Assembly (NCBI GenBank): GCA_947642635.1
Contig: CANRTI010000003.1
Coordinates: 1-64,000 of the forward strand
Origin: an uncultured Mycoplasma sp.
Lineage (GTDB): Bacteria; Bacillota_I; Bacilli_A; RF39; UBA660
DNA length: 64,000 nt
Reading direction: 5' to 3'
Made by a program: the position numbers and the translations under genes. This document shows positions 16,283 to 56,989 of the stretch, one piece after another. A model generated the notes under the pieces. The model searched no databases and was not told the origin of the DNA. It saw only the letters and a program-made list of their open reading frames with translations. Within the stretch, counting starts at the first letter, position 1. Every line of letters starts with the position of its first letter.

Positions 16283-17059
16283 ATGCGGTATTGTTTGGTT
16301 CTTTATAATGATAATAATTTGATTGAAATTAATGATTTTTCTTCTTTGAAGGGTTGTCAAGATTATAATCCTAATACATTAAGAGATATAGTTAATTTTA
16401 CCCATCACTTTCTAGATGAAATGGAATTAAAGGAGTTTTTAAAATCTCATAATTTAGTTCCTTCTGATATTCAAAATTATGCATTAGGAATTGTTTATTT
16501 TTGCAGTCGTGATGCTGCTCCCAAATTATTAGAAAATGGTATTTCTTATGAGGCAGATGACTATTTCTATAACCCCGATAATTTAGAACATTTTTTGATA
16601 ACACATCTAGATGATTTAAATTTAATGGCTTGTTTTTTAAAAAAGTATAATACTTATTTACGTAAAGTTGCTATTTATTCTGAACCTTTAGATTATTTAG
16701 TTGATGGTTTTAATAATTTTCAAAAAACAGGTAGAATTTCTGCTAGTTATCGATTAGCAATGATTTCTTTTTTTAAATTTTTTACTACTAAGAAAAATAA
16801 AGACAATACTTTTTCGGATAATTTTCGAAATATTAGAGATTTAGCCATGTTTGTTATCGATTATTTAAATCAAACTTATGAACCAGCAAGTTATAGCGAA
16901 GATTATGATACTGAATTACATCATTTAAAACTGGCAGTTAGTGCTGGTACTTTAACAGATGAACAAGCGGATTATTTGGGAATGCGAATTACAGAATTAG
17001 AACAAATACAAGATAAAAGAAGTAGAAGGAAGGGAAATTATGCAACTACCAAAAATTAA
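16283..17059 (+). CDS. Lineage-specific protein of unknown function, upstream of def
   Basis: The 258-residue soluble protein is not one I recognise. The start at 16283 (MRYCLVLYND) has a good Shine-Dalgarno, whereas the upstream in-frame start at 16265 does not. Its first 60 residues resemble the N-terminus of the protein at 43048-43620: LVL, NLI(E/D)IN, then FT..F.E.EL.E..K..N.V..D occur in the same order. The C-terminal 45 residues (HLKLAVSAGTLTDEQADYLG) look helical. It overlaps def by 20 bp and is co-transcribed with it. Function unknown. Confidence 0.75.
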   Translation: MRYCLVLYNDNNLIEINDFSSLKGCQDYNPNTLRDIVNFTHHFLDEMELKEFLKSHNLVPSDIQNYALGIVYFCSRDAAPKLLENGISYEADDYFYNPDNLEHFLITHLDDLNLMACFLKKYNTYLRKVAIYSEPLDYLVDGFNNFQKTGRISASYRLAMISFFKFFTTKKNKDNTFSDNFRNIRDLAMFVIDYLNQTYEPASYSEDYDTELHHLKLAVSAGTLTDEQADYLGMRITELEQIQDKRSRRKGNYATTKN

Positions 17060-17591
17060 AATATTAGATGAATTAGATAAAACACTAAGAATTAAAAGTA
17101 ATGAAGTAATATTTCCATTAAGTAAAGAAGATAAAAAAACTATTCAAGATATAATTACTTATTTAACAATGAGCCAAATTGAAGAATATTTTAAAAAGTA
17201 TGATTTAAGACCAGGAATGGGCCTTGCTTTTATTCAATTAGGAATTCCGAAAAATATTTTTGTAGTTGTTGAAGAAGTTGATGAGGAAGAGTTTGAAAAT
17301 TATGTCATCATTAATCCTAAAATTATAAGTCATAGTGAAGAATTAATATACGTTGGTGAGGGTGAAGGTTGTTTAAGTGTCAATCGTGATGTCGATGGGA
17401 TTGTGCCAAGATACGCAAGAATGCGGATAAGTTATCAAGATATTGATGGCAATAAAAAAGAAATACGCGTTCGAGAAGATATTTCAGTAGCTTTTCAACA
17501 TGAAATGGATCATTTAAATGGTATATTATTTATAGATAAAATTGATAAAAATAATCCATTCAAAAATAAAAATAAAATGCGAGAAATATAA
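17040..17591 (+). CDS. def: Peptide deformylase
   Basis: Deformylase removes the N-formyl group from nascent proteins. The three family motifs are all present: GMGLAFIQLG (motif 1), GEGCLSV (motif 2, metal-binding Cys) and QHEMDHLNG (motif 3, HExxH). At 183 residues and with an insertion between motifs 1 and 2, it fits the type II enzymes of Bacilli. Its ATG at 17040 overlaps the preceding gene. A strong terminator follows. Confidence 0.95.
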   Translation: MQLPKIKILDELDKTLRIKSNEVIFPLSKEDKKTIQDIITYLTMSQIEEYFKKYDLRPGMGLAFIQLGIPKNIFVVVEEVDEEEFENYVIINPKIISHSEELIYVGEGEGCLSVNRDVDGIVPRYARMRISYQDIDGNKKEIRVREDISVAFQHEMDHLNGILFIDKIDKNNPFKNKNKMREI

Positions 17592-17638: not shown

Positions 17639-17677
17639 AAAAATCTATTGGCCAATACTTTTTAATATAATAAGCAA

Positions 17678-17740
17678 TTGTTTTAATTAAAAAAGTTAGA
17701 TATAATTATGATAGGTAGTCTTGATAAAGAACAGTCGCGT
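17678..17740 (+). repeat. Promoter-plus-leader direct repeat, copy 1
   Basis: A promoter (-35 TTGTTT 17678-17683, 17 nt, -10 TATAAT 17701-17706) runs into a 29-bp block (17712-17740) that is identical to one 1,021 bp downstream (18733-18761); 38 of 40 bp match from the -10 onward. After 17740 the copies diverge, although copy 1 goes on with a short Tyr/Asn-codon-rich stretch (GYINSNYRA in the shared frame) before the end of dinD. It looks like a truncated copy of the element at 18699-18908. Confidence 0.75.
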
Positions 17741-17796
17741 GATGGTTATATTAACAGTAATTATCGGGCTTATTTTTTCACACACTTAAGATTTTT

Positions 17797-18630
17797 TCAT
17801 ATTTTGGCACAATTTTTTATTTCTTTCTCTAATTGTTTCAAACTTTTCTTTGGTGTTGGTAAGTCTTCTGGCATCGTTCCTCCAAGTTCTTTTATTGTCT
17901 TTCTTATTTTTGAGCCAACTTCATAATGGGCTTTATTAGCTTCTTTTTCACTTTGAATATTATCTTTCTTTAATTTTTGGTCTGTTTGAGATATTCTAAA
18001 TAAATTTGCTATAAGTTCATCACTTCCCATATTATCTAAAATATCTTCTCTATACCTTAATTCTTTTCTTTTAGCAATATCATCAGCTGTTTCTCCATTG
18101 TATAAACCTTTATAGCCATAATTATGAAATTTATCAAAATTTTTGACACCCGCATTCTTGGCTGTTTGATTAAGTGAATAATTTCCTTTTTTAGTTAAAT
18201 TTCTTTGATAAAAACGTTTTTCGTCTTCTGTTAATTTGTTATATTCCTGTTCATTAATTTCTTGTTTTCTAGTTTGGACTGCAAAATATGTTTGTGCAAG
18301 AGCAACGACCTTTTTTCTAGTATCCCCATTTTGAGCTATTAAATAACAAGCATAACGAGTTAGTTTATAATCTTTTTGTTTTCTTTCTGCTCCTGAACCT
18401 ATTTGTACCATTTTGTCAACGTCGACAAAATGGTCAAAAACACTAAAATCACTGTTTTTACAAGATTCTTTAGCTTTATTTATTACATTTTCAAATTTTC
18501 GCCATTCCTTATAATTTAAAACTATTTGCAATTCTCGAGCATACCAGTATTCTATCCCATTTTCTTCAATACGTTTTATATCTTCAAAACTTTTATTGGT
18601 ATAATTTTCTTTTTTAGCTAGTTTATTCAT
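17797..18630 (-). CDS. dinD: DinD-like (BRO-N / damage-inducible D) protein
   Basis: The 277-residue protein matches the DinD type. An N-terminal BRO-N-like domain includes YWYARELQIVLNYKEWRKFE and DYKLTRYACYLIAQNGD. Downstream are FAVQTRKQE and the KNFDKFHNYGYKGLY region. DinD family proteins are SOS- or phage-associated, and E. coli DinD modulates RecA filaments. Such genes are frequent cargo of mobile DNA. Here the gene lies on the minus strand between two direct copies of a plus-strand promoter/leader repeat, consistent with acquisition by insertion. I saw no clear LexA box upstream. Confidence 0.85.
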   Translation of the reverse strand: MNKLAKKENYTNKSFEDIKRIEENGIEYWYARELQIVLNYKEWRKFENVINKAKESCKNSDFSVFDHFVDVDKMVQIGSGAERKQKDYKLTRYACYLIAQNGDTRKKVVALAQTYFAVQTRKQEINEQEYNKLTEDEKRFYQRNLTKKGNYSLNQTAKNAGVKNFDKFHNYGYKGLYNGETADDIAKRKELRYREDILDNMGSDELIANLFRISQTDQKLKKDNIQSEKEANKAHYEVGSKIRKTIKELGGTMPEDLPTPKKSLKQLEKEIKNCAKI

Positions 18631-18698: not shown

Positions 18699-18908
18699 TT
18701 GTTTTCAATCATTGAATTAGTTATAATTATATTAGGTAGTCTTGATAAAGAACAGTCGCGTTACGGTAATTCGGGTGGTTACAATGCGTGGAATGTGAAT
18801 TCGAACGGCAATGTCAACAATAACAATTTGCATAATACGAATTCGGTTCGCCCAGCCCACTATAACTTGAAAGATAATATGGCTAAGGTTATATTTTTGG
18901 GAAGATAG
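18699..18908 (+). ncRNA. Retroelement-like template/variable repeat with its own promoter (repeat copy 2)
   Basis: A promoter (TTGTTT 18699-18704, 17 nt, TATAAT 18722-18727) is followed by the shared 29-bp block and then a region much richer in G+C than its surroundings. Read in the open frame it gives YNAWNVNSNGNVNNNN then NTNSVRPA, before a TAG at 18906. Such AAY-rich sequence ending in VRPA is the pattern of diversity-generating retroelement template and variable repeats. There is no start codon after the promoter (the frame's only start, a TTG, is the -35 itself), so the transcript is probably non-coding. No reverse transcriptase lies in the window. It may be a template RNA, an orphan variable repeat or a remnant. 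Confidence 0.5.
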
Positions 18909-18957
18909 AGGACAAAGATTATCTAAGATGAAATGATTTAATATTTTGTCTAAATTA

Positions 18958-19012
18958 AAAACAGAGATGATTAAGTTATACGTAACTTATCTATTACTCT
19001 GTTATTTTTATT
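18958..19012. terminator. Bidirectional terminator between the repeat element and smc
   Basis: A long stem pairs AAAACAGAGAT...TTAAGTTA with TAACTTAT...TACTCTGTTAT. T-rich tails on both strands would stop smc transcription and any rightward transcript from the repeat element. Confidence 0.75.
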
Positions 19013-21946
19013 TTATAAATCGGCTAACTCTACTCCAACTACTTTACTAATACCAGCATTTTGCATAGTAACACCATATAATACATCAGCATATTCCATC
19101 ATTCTTTTTTTATGAGTAATTAAAATATATTGACTACTCATTTTTTTACGATTTAAATATTCGCCAAATAAATCCACATTAACTTCATCTAATGCTGCTT
19201 CAACTTCATCTAAAATAATAAATGGGACAGGAGAAACATTTAAAATAGCAAATAGTAGACAAATAGCTGTTAAAGATTTTTCGCCTCCAGAAAGACTTTG
19301 AGTATTATGTAGTTTTTTACCTGGTGGAATAACTATCATATCAATTCCTGTATGTAAATAATCTTTTGGATCAGTTAATTCTAACTTTCCAATACCGCCT
19401 TGAAACATAATTTTAAATACTTTACTAAATTCGGCACTTACACTTTCAAATGTAGTTTTGAATTTATCAGTCATAATATTATCCATATCATTAATAACTT
19501 CTAAGAGATTATTCATTGATATTTCTAAATCGTTTTTTTGATTTAATAAGAATTCATAGCGAGTATTAATTCGTTCATACTCAGCAATACTTCCAGTATT
19601 TACTTCTCCTAAAGCTTTAATATCATTTTTCAATTTACTTACTTTACTTCTGGCAATATCTACTTCAACTTCTAATTCATAGTTAGCAGCAGCATATTCA
19701 TAAGTCATACTATAATCTTCATTAAGAGTTAAAAGCAGATTATCTAGTTTAATATTGATTTTACCAATGTTAAGACTAATTTTATTAATCTCTGCTAGTG
19801 TGGCTTTATATTCAGAATTAACTAAACTATTGGCATCTTCTAAAGATTTTAAATTATTATTTAATTCTTCTTTTTTATTTTTTAACTCTAAAATATTTTG
19901 ATCAATTTTTTCTTTTTCAATATTTAAAACATTTAATCTAGCCATAAGATTATCTAATTCTGTATCAATTAAATTATCTTTTAAATTGTTCATTCCTGTG
20001 ATATCATTTTTAACTATTTTTAGTTTTTCTTCAAAATTGTGTAAATCATTTAATTTATTATCTTTAATATTATTTAAATTAATTAATTCTTTATCATTAT
20101 TTAATATATTATCACTAATAATTTCATATTCACTATTTAAATCTTTTAAAGAATTATTTAAAATTTCTATTTTATCAATAATATTATCTAACTTTGTTTT
20201 GTGATTAGACAATTCATTTTTTAAGGAAACACCATTATTTTTAATAGCTCCGCCACCACTTATAGAACCACCAGCATAAATAATACTACCATCAAGGGAA
20301 ATAACACGATATTTGTAGTCTAAAATTTTAGCCACTAAATTCATAGCATCAATATTTTCAACAACAATAATATTTCCCAATTGATTTTCAATAATATTTT
20401 GATATAAGGAATTATATTGGATTAATTCCGATAAAATACCAACATAACCATTTACTTGAACAAGACGAGATTTAACTTCTGCATTAATTAACCGAGATTT
20501 AATAATGTTAAGCGGTAAAAAAGTTGCACGACCAATTTTCTTCTCTTTTAAATAGTTAATTGCCTCTTTAGCAACATTTTCATTATCAACAACTAAAAAA
20601 TTACTAGATGCTCCTAGAGCAACTTCTGTAGCGGTAATAAATTCATCAGGAATAGTAATTAAATTACTTATAGTATTGTGAATACCAGATAATCTTGGAT
20701 TATTTAATAAATTTTTAACACTTAATGGTAAATGTTCATTGTTTAAAAGATTATTTTCAATTATATCAATGCGATTTTCTAAATTAAACTTCTCTTTTAA
20801 TAAATCATTTAAGTCTTGATTATAAATATTTTTCTTAGACACAATATTTTTATAATCAATAGTTTTTTCTTGATTAATTTTAGTCTTTTCATTAATATTA
20901 TTTTTTAATATATCTATTTCATTATTAAGTAATTCAATTTCTTTAATTAATTTTAATTCTTCTTCTTTTAAATTAAGTAAATTATTTTGAACTTTATCTT
21001 CACTGTATTCGTATTTGATACGTTCTAAATTTATTCTTTTTTCACTATCTAATAAAGATATTTCTTCTGTTAAATTAAGTAATTTTTTATTAGCAGCATT
21101 CAAATCATCATCTATTTTATAAATATCTAACTTTACTTTTTCTATTTCATTAGCATTAATTGAATGTTCCATACTCTCTAACTTTTTATTTAAAGTATCT
21201 TCTTTATTCTTTAGTTCTTTATATTCCTTATTAATATTTGTAATATCACTACTAATTAAAGCAATTTCCATATTTTTTAATTCATTTTTTAAATCTAAAT
21301 AAATCTTGGCTACTTCAGCTTGTTTTTTTAAAGGCAAAACAGATTGTTCTAGTTCATTAATAACTAATTTAACACTCTCTAAATTATCTTTTGTTTTATC
21401 TAATTTTTTTAAACTCTCTTCTTTACGTTTTTTATATTTTAAAACCCCAGCTGCACTTTCAAATATAACCCGTCTTTCTAAGGGCTTAGAATTAACAATA
21501 TCAGTAACTGTTCCTTGAGAAATAATATTAAATGCTTCGCCAGAAGCTCCCGAGTCAATAAATAATTCTAAAATGTCTTTTAAACGAACTCGGGTATTAT
21601 TTAAATAATATTCACTTTCACCACTCTTATAAACAGTTCTTTTAACAGCAATTTCCGTAAATTCACTATTTAAATATTTATCACTATTATCAAAAGTCAA
21701 AATAACTGATGCTTTATTTAAAGCGTCTTTATATTCGGAACCACTAAAAATGACATCACTCATGCTTGAAGCACCACGCAAAGATTTTACTGATTGCTCT
21801 CCTAAAACCCATCTAACAGCATCAACTATATTACTTTTACCACTACCATTAGGACCAACAACAGCAGTTATACCTTTATTAAGTTCAAAAGTCGTTTTCT
21901 CGGCAAACGACTTAAATCCTTCTAATTTAATACTTTTTAAATACAT
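19013..21946 (-). CDS. smc: Chromosome condensation protein SMC (short arms)
   Basis: SMC is the ATPase that organises and segregates the chromosome with ScpA/ScpB. The N-terminal ATPase lobe has GPNGSGKSNIVDAVRW. Two coiled-coil arms flank a hinge at about residues 415-530 (ending near ATFLPLNI), and the C-terminal lobe has LSGGEKSLTAICLLFAI and FIILDEVEAALDE. All catalytic motifs are intact. At 977 residues it is about 200 shorter than the usual bacterial 1,180, and the loss is in the coiled coils. It follows rnc with a 15-bp gap, the normal rnc-smc order of Bacilli. Confidence 0.96.
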   Translation of the reverse strand: MYLKSIKLEGFKSFAEKTTFELNKGITAVVGPNGSGKSNIVDAVRWVLGEQSVKSLRGASSMSDVIFSGSEYKDALNKASVILTFDNSDKYLNSEFTEIAVKRTVYKSGESEYYLNNTRVRLKDILELFIDSGASGEAFNIISQGTVTDIVNSKPLERRVIFESAAGVLKYKKRKEESLKKLDKTKDNLESVKLVINELEQSVLPLKKQAEVAKIYLDLKNELKNMEIALISSDITNINKEYKELKNKEDTLNKKLESMEHSINANEIEKVKLDIYKIDDDLNAANKKLLNLTEEISLLDSEKRINLERIKYEYSEDKVQNNLLNLKEEELKLIKEIELLNNEIDILKNNINEKTKINQEKTIDYKNIVSKKNIYNQDLNDLLKEKFNLENRIDIIENNLLNNEHLPLSVKNLLNNPRLSGIHNTISNLITIPDEFITATEVALGASSNFLVVDNENVAKEAINYLKEKKIGRATFLPLNIIKSRLINAEVKSRLVQVNGYVGILSELIQYNSLYQNIIENQLGNIIVVENIDAMNLVAKILDYKYRVISLDGSIIYAGGSISGGGAIKNNGVSLKNELSNHKTKLDNIIDKIEILNNSLKDLNSEYEIISDNILNNDKELINLNNIKDNKLNDLHNFEEKLKIVKNDITGMNNLKDNLIDTELDNLMARLNVLNIEKEKIDQNILELKNKKEELNNNLKSLEDANSLVNSEYKATLAEINKISLNIGKINIKLDNLLLTLNEDYSMTYEYAAANYELEVEVDIARSKVSKLKNDIKALGEVNTGSIAEYERINTRYEFLLNQKNDLEISMNNLLEVINDMDNIMTDKFKTTFESVSAEFSKVFKIMFQGGIGKLELTDPKDYLHTGIDMIVIPPGKKLHNTQSLSGGEKSLTAICLLFAILNVSPVPFIILDEVEAALDEVNVDLFGEYLNRKKMSSQYILITHKKRMMEYADVLYGVTMQNAGISKVVGVELADL

Positions 21947-55595: not shown

Positions 55596-55622
55596 ATAAA
55601 AAAGAAGTATAAAACTTCCATT
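55596..55622 (-). terminator. Terminator after the surface protein gene
   Basis: On the minus strand GGAAGTTTTATACTTC is followed by TTTTTTATTG. Confidence 0.8.
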
Positions 55623-56896
55623 TAATTTTTAACTATTTTATAAGGATCATTATAAGTACCACTACCAGTAACTTCAACATTCTTAATTAAATTAATAACT
55701 GGTCTTACACCCCGATATAAACTACCATCGATATCACTTCTTAAATTACCATTAATATCAATAGTAAAGAAATTTATAAATGTATCACTACCTTTAGCAC
55801 TACTCATTGTAAACCAAGGATTATTAATATTAGAATTATATAAATAATAACTTTGATTTGTTCCATGCGGTGTTGCCCCTGCTAAGATAACTTCATCAAC
55901 AGTAAGTAAGCCAATACTATCATTAACAGACTCTCCTAAACAATTTAGAGTAGGTATTTTATTAGTTAATACTCTACTAGCAGCAAGACTATTACCAGCA
56001 TTATCATTACTTATATCACTACAAAATTTAGCATTAGCTATATAACTTGTATATTCTCGTAAATTATCTTGAAACCAAGCATTTAATGTTGTTCTGATAG
56101 TACTATCTTTATAATTAAAGTTAGTATTTGTATAATAACTAGCAACATTATTAGTAATACCATCTAAAACTAATCTTACAGTTTCATCCCCATTAATTCG
56201 CACAATCCGAAAATATAAATTATTAATTAAAACATAATTATTTGAAATAGAACCTCTAAAATAATAAGAATTACCTATATCATCACTACTTTTAATTAAA
56301 CCTTCTTCTGTAGTAGCAGCTTCATAACCAACTCTCGTTAAACTCTCTTCTTTAAAAGGATTGTTTTTTAAAATAGTGTTCGCAAAAGTAGTTATATGTT
56401 TATTTTGCATTCTAATATTTATTAAACCATTTAGAGAATTATTTTCTTCACTATTAGTTATTTCTAAAGTATATATTTTAGTCATATTAGCATCAATACT
56501 TATATAATCAGTTGTTATTTCATCAGTACTTTTTAATATACCTTCTAAAACTATTTCCCCATCTAATAATAATTTATAAGTTCCATTTCCTCTTACTTTA
56601 CTAAAATTAATATGGTAATAACTAGTTTCAGCACTACTATTAGTGATGGAAAACTTAATTTGATTATTTTTAGTCACATTAAATTTTTTACCATCAACAT
56701 AATTTATCGAAAGAGTTCCATTAACTTCAATATCTGAGTCTAATATATTGTCACTACGATTAATATAAATAAATCCAAGTGCCATAACCATAATTATTAA
56801 TAAAGTAACTACAAATAATAAAAATTTATAAATCTTACGCATCTTTAATTTTACTAAAATTTCAGGTTTACTATTTTTATTCTTCAAATTTATCAT
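55622..56896 (-). CDS. Membrane-anchored surface protein with a DUF6273-like C-terminal domain
   Basis: A short cytoplasmic N-terminus and a membrane helix (about residues 21-45) are followed by a beta-rich region (residues 55-165). The C-terminal domain has the hallmarks of the DUF6273/FGE-like surface fold: RIVRINGDETVRLVLD, STIRTTLNAWFQDNL, LLTVDEVILAGA and LYRGVRPVINL. Such proteins are common on gut Bacillota. The start is uncertain: ATG 56896 is used, but the codon at 56899 or an internal Met (MRKIYKFLL) may be real. Confidence 0.75.
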   Translation of the reverse strand: MINLKNKNSKPEILVKLKMRKIYKFLLFVVTLLIIMVMALGFIYINRSDNILDSDIEVNGTLSINYVDGKKFNVTKNNQIKFSITNSSAETSYYHINFSKVRGNGTYKLLLDGEIVLEGILKSTDEITTDYISIDANMTKIYTLEITNSEENNSLNGLINIRMQNKHITTFANTILKNNPFKEESLTRVGYEAATTEEGLIKSSDDIGNSYYFRGSISNNYVLINNLYFRIVRINGDETVRLVLDGITNNVASYYTNTNFNYKDSTIRTTLNAWFQDNLREYTSYIANAKFCSDISNDNAGNSLAASRVLTNKIPTLNCLGESVNDSIGLLTVDEVILAGATPHGTNQSYYLYNSNINNPWFTMSSAKGSDTFINFFTIDINGNLRSDIDGSLYRGVRPVINLIKNVEVTGSGTYNDPYKIVKN

Positions 56897-56989
56897 CACC
56901 CTACTATTAAAGTATATTAAAAAGTCAATATATTGTCAACTGAAAAACCCAAAATTTAAAAACTTCTAGTTTTAAATGATTTATGGTAA

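Follow-up and report, generated by a model that had tools for sequence, protein, structure and literature searches.

The DNA analysed here, referred to throughout as the window, is a 64,000-nucleotide stretch that forms the first 64 kb of contig C3 in the 1.31-Mb genome of an uncultured Mycoplasma sp., a gut bacterium; the assembly consists of 45 contigs and is 94.5% complete (our own labels G, C and L denote genomes, contigs and loci). Within the window, a 1.42-kb gap separates the peptide deformylase gene def (17040-17591) from smc (19013-21946, minus strand), and contains, in order, a truncated template repeat (TR) unit, a dinD-like gene on the minus strand and a complete TR unit. In the relatives G003 and G011, def and smc are directly adjacent, indicating that the material in the gap was either inserted in the window genome or lost in these relatives. 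The truncated unit (~17673-17771, plus strand) has a TATAAT at 17701-17706, a leader from 17713 and the start of a core, is devoid of the 3' part, and forms a direct repeat with the complete unit (own-genome match 17673-17749). The dinD-like gene occupies 17797-18630 (NF008573, E=5e-110; Bro-N).

The complete TR unit spans 18699-19009 on the plus strand. Its promoter consists of TTGTTT (18699-18704) and, 17 nt further on, TATAAT (18722-18727), the latter being found in homologous units, and is followed by the 5' leader AGGTAGTCTT (18734-18743), which contains the inferred RNA start and is the aligned start of every copy. The 100-bp TR core (18756-18855) runs from TCGCGTTACGGT to GTTCGCCCAG, translates as RYGNSGGYNAWNVNSNGNVNNNNLHNTNSVRP and is homologous to the variable repeats (VRs) of target genes, as adenine-specific mismatches demonstrate for its sister TRs. 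Next comes a structured spacer (18856-18959) that comprises a hairpin at ~18857-18911, a strand that can pair with the leader (AAGATTATCT, 18915-18924) and a small third helix, as assessed by RNAalifold and pair counts. The unit ends in an intrinsic terminator (18960-19009), conserved and covarying, in which the stem AACAGAG (18960-18966) / CTCTGTT (18997-19003) precedes a T run. An earlier note on this DNA had described a promoter feeding an AAY-rich frame that has no start and is richer in G+C than its surroundings, and this is what the sequence contains: the frame RYGNSGGYNAWNVNSNGNVNNNNLHNTNSVRPA lies after the promoter, and there is no start codon from the inferred start at 18734 to the TR core. 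The same note had placed the element at 18699-18908; the start is correct, but the end is too early, as the conserved spacer and terminator reach ~19009.

Approximately ten TR units are present in this genome, ~85-91% identical over the whole unit and distributed over seven contigs (three on C4, two on C37, and one each on C3, C7, C17, C22 and C38). That the entire unit recurs about ten times indicates that the sequence at 18699-19009 is more than chance. The second C37 unit (C37b) and the C22 unit have a common core, and the C7 copy lacks the 3' end typical of the units. In the same genome, a covariance model built on the 3' module detected 9 complete copies plus 2 that are partial or damaged, and it gave 13 matches in G019, 12 in G026, 7 in G032 and 6 in each of G022 and G008; at least one match was obtained in 18 of the 38 genomes of the genus. 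One insertion in the spacer is common to all own-genome copies with a complete spacer and absent from the other genomes aligned, which points to amplification or homogenisation within the lineage. Many of the units reside deep inside long contigs and far from any reverse transcriptase (RT) gene, such as those at 31.5 and 54.7 kb of the 87-kb contig C7 of G022, indicating dispersal and not an artefact of assembly. Furthermore, gene neighbourhoods of TR units in G019 and G032 match at several sites, and two such pairs have cores that are 92% identical, suggesting that individual templates persist. Rfam holds no family for the TR unit, and no exact match to the spacer pattern was found in viral contigs. 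Named records that do carry the spacer motif are metagenome-assembled genomes of uncultured Bacilli, the samples being labelled as rabbit ("Lapin") or taken from goat rectum.

Several features indicate that the unit encodes an RNA. Among 50 related units from 12 genomes, 47 contain TATAAT, which in 46 of these is located 5-7 nt upstream of the GGTA[AG]TCTT leader and in 38 exactly 6 nt before it, while conservation is poor at the remaining upstream positions. Because these units were collected with the help of the leader motif, its invariance is partly due to selection; the position of TATAAT played no part in the collection. Spacer and terminator form five helices in which 97.4% of cells pair, compared to at most 53% when the partners are slid (RNAalifold and pair counts), and 14 of the 39 pairs of the 3' module show changes on both sides. 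In the predicted fold, the leader pairs over 10 bp with the spacer strand, enclosing the TR in a loop; support for this stem comes mainly from conservation, plus one unit with a matching G/C change. In several copies, stops interrupt the reading frame before the core is reached, which is to be expected if the RNA is non-coding. The proposal of a non-coding template RNA in the earlier note thus agrees with frames that are stop-broken or startless in the copies, with the covarying spacer and with the conserved leader and TATAAT position, and the window unit is, on its sequence features, a predicted autonomous RNA gene. The homology of the core to the 3' ends of target genes (DUF6273, a weak match at E=0.055) could alternatively mark a degraded, functionless fragment of such a gene. 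However, the sequence on either side of the core does not derive from a target gene, different species have kept the promoter, leader, spacer and terminator, with covariation, and TR units of G019 and G032, including those with the 92% identical cores, have corresponding neighbours. Covariation and a promoter common to the units contradict this explanation, to which we attach a negligible probability.

Diversity-generating retroelements (DGRs) are bacterial retroelements that randomise parts of surface proteins, and the usual picture is of one template and one or a few rewritten targets. Within the genus, adenine-specific transfer from TR to VR is evident, including between contigs. A VR on C6 of the window genome differs from a TR on C4 at 10/32 adenines and at 0/71 other positions; a pair in G004 differs at 15/37 adenines and 0/72 other positions, and one in G022 at 14/27 and 0/73. 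These three pairs, with 10-15 mismatches at adenine and none elsewhere, stand without pooling. When eight pairs from four genomes are pooled, mismatches occur at 110/266 adenines versus 13/549 other positions (Fisher p=1e-46), although the non-adenine rate is biased low because the pairs were picked for few non-adenine mismatches (at most four). The suggestion that the element is a DGR template, with near-identical copies elsewhere in the genome that differ at adenines, is therefore upheld: copies were found, the coding ones (VRs) differ from sister TRs almost only at TR adenines, and the architecture of the unit is conserved. Dispersed non-coding variants of a coding segment, with cores that look mosaic, would also be anticipated of silent cassettes whose donor segments are swapped with targets by homologous recombination and without reverse transcription. 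Gene conversion is faithful, though, whereas the VR-TR differences fall at adenines and nowhere else (0/71, 0/72 and 0/73), which is the mark of a DGR; in addition, RT and Avd are linked in relatives and the RNA structure is conserved. The adenine-specific mismatch pattern contradicts conversion cassettes, which we regard as highly improbable.

With transfer by a DGR as the preferred reading, the pairs also bear on how templates reach their targets. A target on C26 of G022 matches the second TR downstream and not the nearest, and cross-contig pairs with at most two non-adenine mismatches link C6 to C4 in the window genome and C38 to C7 in G022. Therefore, template choice is not simply determined by adjacency and templates appear to act in trans. 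TR and VR have GTTCGCCCAG in common and then diverge, and a check for IMH and hairpin sequences found short, weak inverted repeats after some VRs. In place of GTTCGCCCAGCC, the 3' end of the TR has GTTCGCCTTAAGCC or GTTCGCCAAAGCC in the L121-L140 loci of G019 and G032 and in units L097 and L115 of G026, a lineage-specific change at the presumed IMH* region.

The window genome contains 13 full-length target domains. Target proteins have an N-terminal hydrophobic segment and a C-terminal domain, end in an RYG...VRP segment as the TRs do, and carry their VRs near the C-terminus of the ORF; one of them reaches DUF6273. An AlphaFold model of the target domain from four sequences had a pLDDT of 37. 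Among the 13 targets no VR is clearly derived from the window TR, and the VRs on C16, C3 and C8 have no exactly matching TR in the assembly, both of which suggest that sequence is probably missing from the assembly. At 55622-56899 (minus strand) the window itself contains a 425-aa ORF that matches the DGR target domain distantly (E=7.5e-6). The 1.1-Mb genome G004 has 58 matches to the target-domain profile, a count that includes TR units themselves, and just one TR unit; profile counts were noted likewise for G022, G034 and G019.

Nearly every TR core is distinct: loop length varies, and so does the choice of AAY codons that have given way to fixed ones. In the window genome alone the NNNN stretch occurs as NNNN, NWNN, NNWN, NNNW, NRNN, NNPN, DNPN and GNTN, and individual genomes hold up to 10-13 dispersed, stand-alone TR genes. 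Mutagenesis of AAY codons at adenine cannot yield Trp, and Trp is enriched among hard-coded residues (15/151, p=4e-8 against a rate of 1/61), which is only suggestive, since variable codons align loosely and related units do not count as independent. These data could be explained if the autonomous template RNA genes formed a dispersed library, much as germline V segments do, in which each gene hard-codes its own loop lengths and residues, Trp for example, and every one is able to overwrite the VRs of targets in trans, such that receptor diversity would be the product of template choice and adenine mutagenesis; we consider the odds of this proposal to be even. Two further ideas were rejected. 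Hard-coded residues do not mainly supply the amino acids that AAY codons cannot reach, since that group is not enriched (19/151). Nor are the TRs themselves evidently mutated by the DGR: of five genomes, three show differences between TRs ~3-fold more often at adenine, the other two show a weaker bias or none, and significance is not reached when all are taken together; the bias is ~4-fold at most.

The earlier note had proposed looking for a DGR-type RT, and one is present beside TR units in close relatives but not in the window genome's own assembly, in which PF00078 and the RT protein of a close relative as queries detected none. Likewise, no Avd was found in that assembly beyond one chance-level match. 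In G022, G004, G001, G008 and G032 the gene order is target, TR(s), MutS-like ORF, Avd, RT, an ORF of ~100 aa and tmcAL. The relatives' RT contains GLPIGNMTSQ, with the SQ motif, and YMDD, and its best PDB match is 8ub7 (E=2e-24), a structure of the BPP-1 DGR RT. The Avd-like ORF matches NF033474 (E=1e-9) and PF22296 (E=6e-6), both below the curated cut-off, and adjoins the MutS_I-like ORF. The latter, a conserved ORF of ~129 aa with a match to MutS domain I, precedes Avd and RT in the relatives (L081 6084-6473, with homologues in L087, L088 and L089); MutS-like accessory ORFs occur in DGRs. Of the 38 genomes, 16 encode an orthologous RT, the gene being split or carrying several stops in G021 and G027. 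TR units occur in all 16 of these congeners, compared to 2 of the 22 genomes without the RT (the window genome and G029, the latter by a weak match), giving an exact hypergeometric p of about 7e-9 when calculated by hand and with relatedness ignored.

The missing RT admits two explanations. The lineage may have lost its RT-Avd core, making this a true orphan whose TR units and VRs are leftovers of a once-active DGR; no RT or Avd is found in an assembly that is 94.5% complete, the window TR has no recipient VR, and the RTs of G027 and G021 are split or have several stops. However, tmcAL, which flanks the RT in five relatives, is absent from the assembly as well, making an unassembled RT locus likelier than loss. 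In addition, TRs and VRs lie at or close to the ends of several contigs, the C6 VR continues to agree with its TR at every non-adenine site, and the TR units retain structure and promoter. We therefore regard loss as unlikely, and the RT-Avd locus is probably missing from the assembly. The element had been suggested to be an orphan or trans-acting template, or else a remnant. An orphan or trans-acting template fits, as the assembly has no RT or Avd and TRs match VRs on other contigs. Remnant seems the wrong description for the window unit, whose promoter, spacer structure and terminator are intact, and applies instead to the truncated copy at 17673-17771. Nor is the window unit a lone oddity: it belongs to a set of ~10 dispersed, self-contained TR genes.

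Our favoured interpretation, to which we assign a probability of roughly 0.8, is that an autonomous gene at 18699-19009 encodes a DGR template RNA and is one of ~10 dispersed TR genes that are served by one RT-Avd core and constitute a trans-acting library for ~13 membrane-anchored targets. Transcription from its own promoter would yield an RNA of ~275 nt, in which the 100-nt TR core is held between the 5' leader and the structured 3' spacer. By analogy with BPP-1, the spacer may recruit the RT-Avd complex; the RT would then copy the core with errors at adenines, and the cDNA would replace the VR of a target gene elsewhere. Each TR gene would hard-code distinct fixed residues and loop lengths, with one RT-Avd core serving all. 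On this view, the window copy would be expressed and currently active.

The BPP-1 DGR is organised as avd-TR-spacer-brt, with a single, cis-acting TR within the avd-TR-brt operon (PMC12875486). The system described here resembles it in the AAY-rich TR, the structured spacer 3' of the TR, the RT and Avd (here in relatives) and the adenine-specific transfer into the 3' end of a target gene, but differs in that ~10 TR genes stand alone, each with its own promoter and terminator, and appear to act in trans. In this respect it is closer to an engineered form of BPP-1, in which TR-RNA under a separate promoter works (PMC12875486). DGRs with remote targets have been reported in cyanobacteria (PMC7517822), Thiohalocapsa PB-PSB1 (PMC10907252) and Treponema denticola (PMC4891356), the last with TR variants between strains (PMC4891356). 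These likewise have several VRs per genome away from the RT, and trans action is inferred from non-adenine matches; however, dispersal there concerns the targets, whereas in the present genome it extends to the templates, which form discrete RNA genes. In the MetaCSST survey, about 20% of the DGRs with multiple VRs also have more than one TR (PMC6642488), a likeness to the present case; these TRs do not appear to be described there as autonomous, terminator-bounded RNA genes spread over the chromosome. The DiGReF and Roux et al. pipelines seek repeats near the RT (PMC3521204, PMC8144416) and would therefore miss stand-alone TR genes, so that such templates may be under-counted. We found no description of dispersed or orphan TRs in the open-access literature searched, and judged against that literature dispersed autonomous TR genes appear to be novel. 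Templates that are separate RNA genes add a second layer of diversity, namely which template is used, to adenine mutagenesis, and turn the DGR RNA into a discrete trans-acting part. The genus lends itself to studying how templates are matched with their targets, and protein-diversification tools could adopt the TR unit as a natural design for expressing TR-RNA separately.

Finally, the genes located beside or between TR units are often of the PD-(D/E)XK type (PDDEXK_2, Rpn-like), and the dinD-like gene of the window and a CdiA_C-like ORF of G022 take the same place (L088 3335-6434, L089 3011-3832, L135 3105-3989, L122 2882-3775, L131 2629-3474, window 17797-18630 and L081 5092-5628). TRs may serve these genes as landing sites or recombination partners. 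DUF3800 genes also adjoin several TR units in G019 and G032 (L123 3287-3982 and 4937-5626, L125 1528-2217 and L139 635-940).
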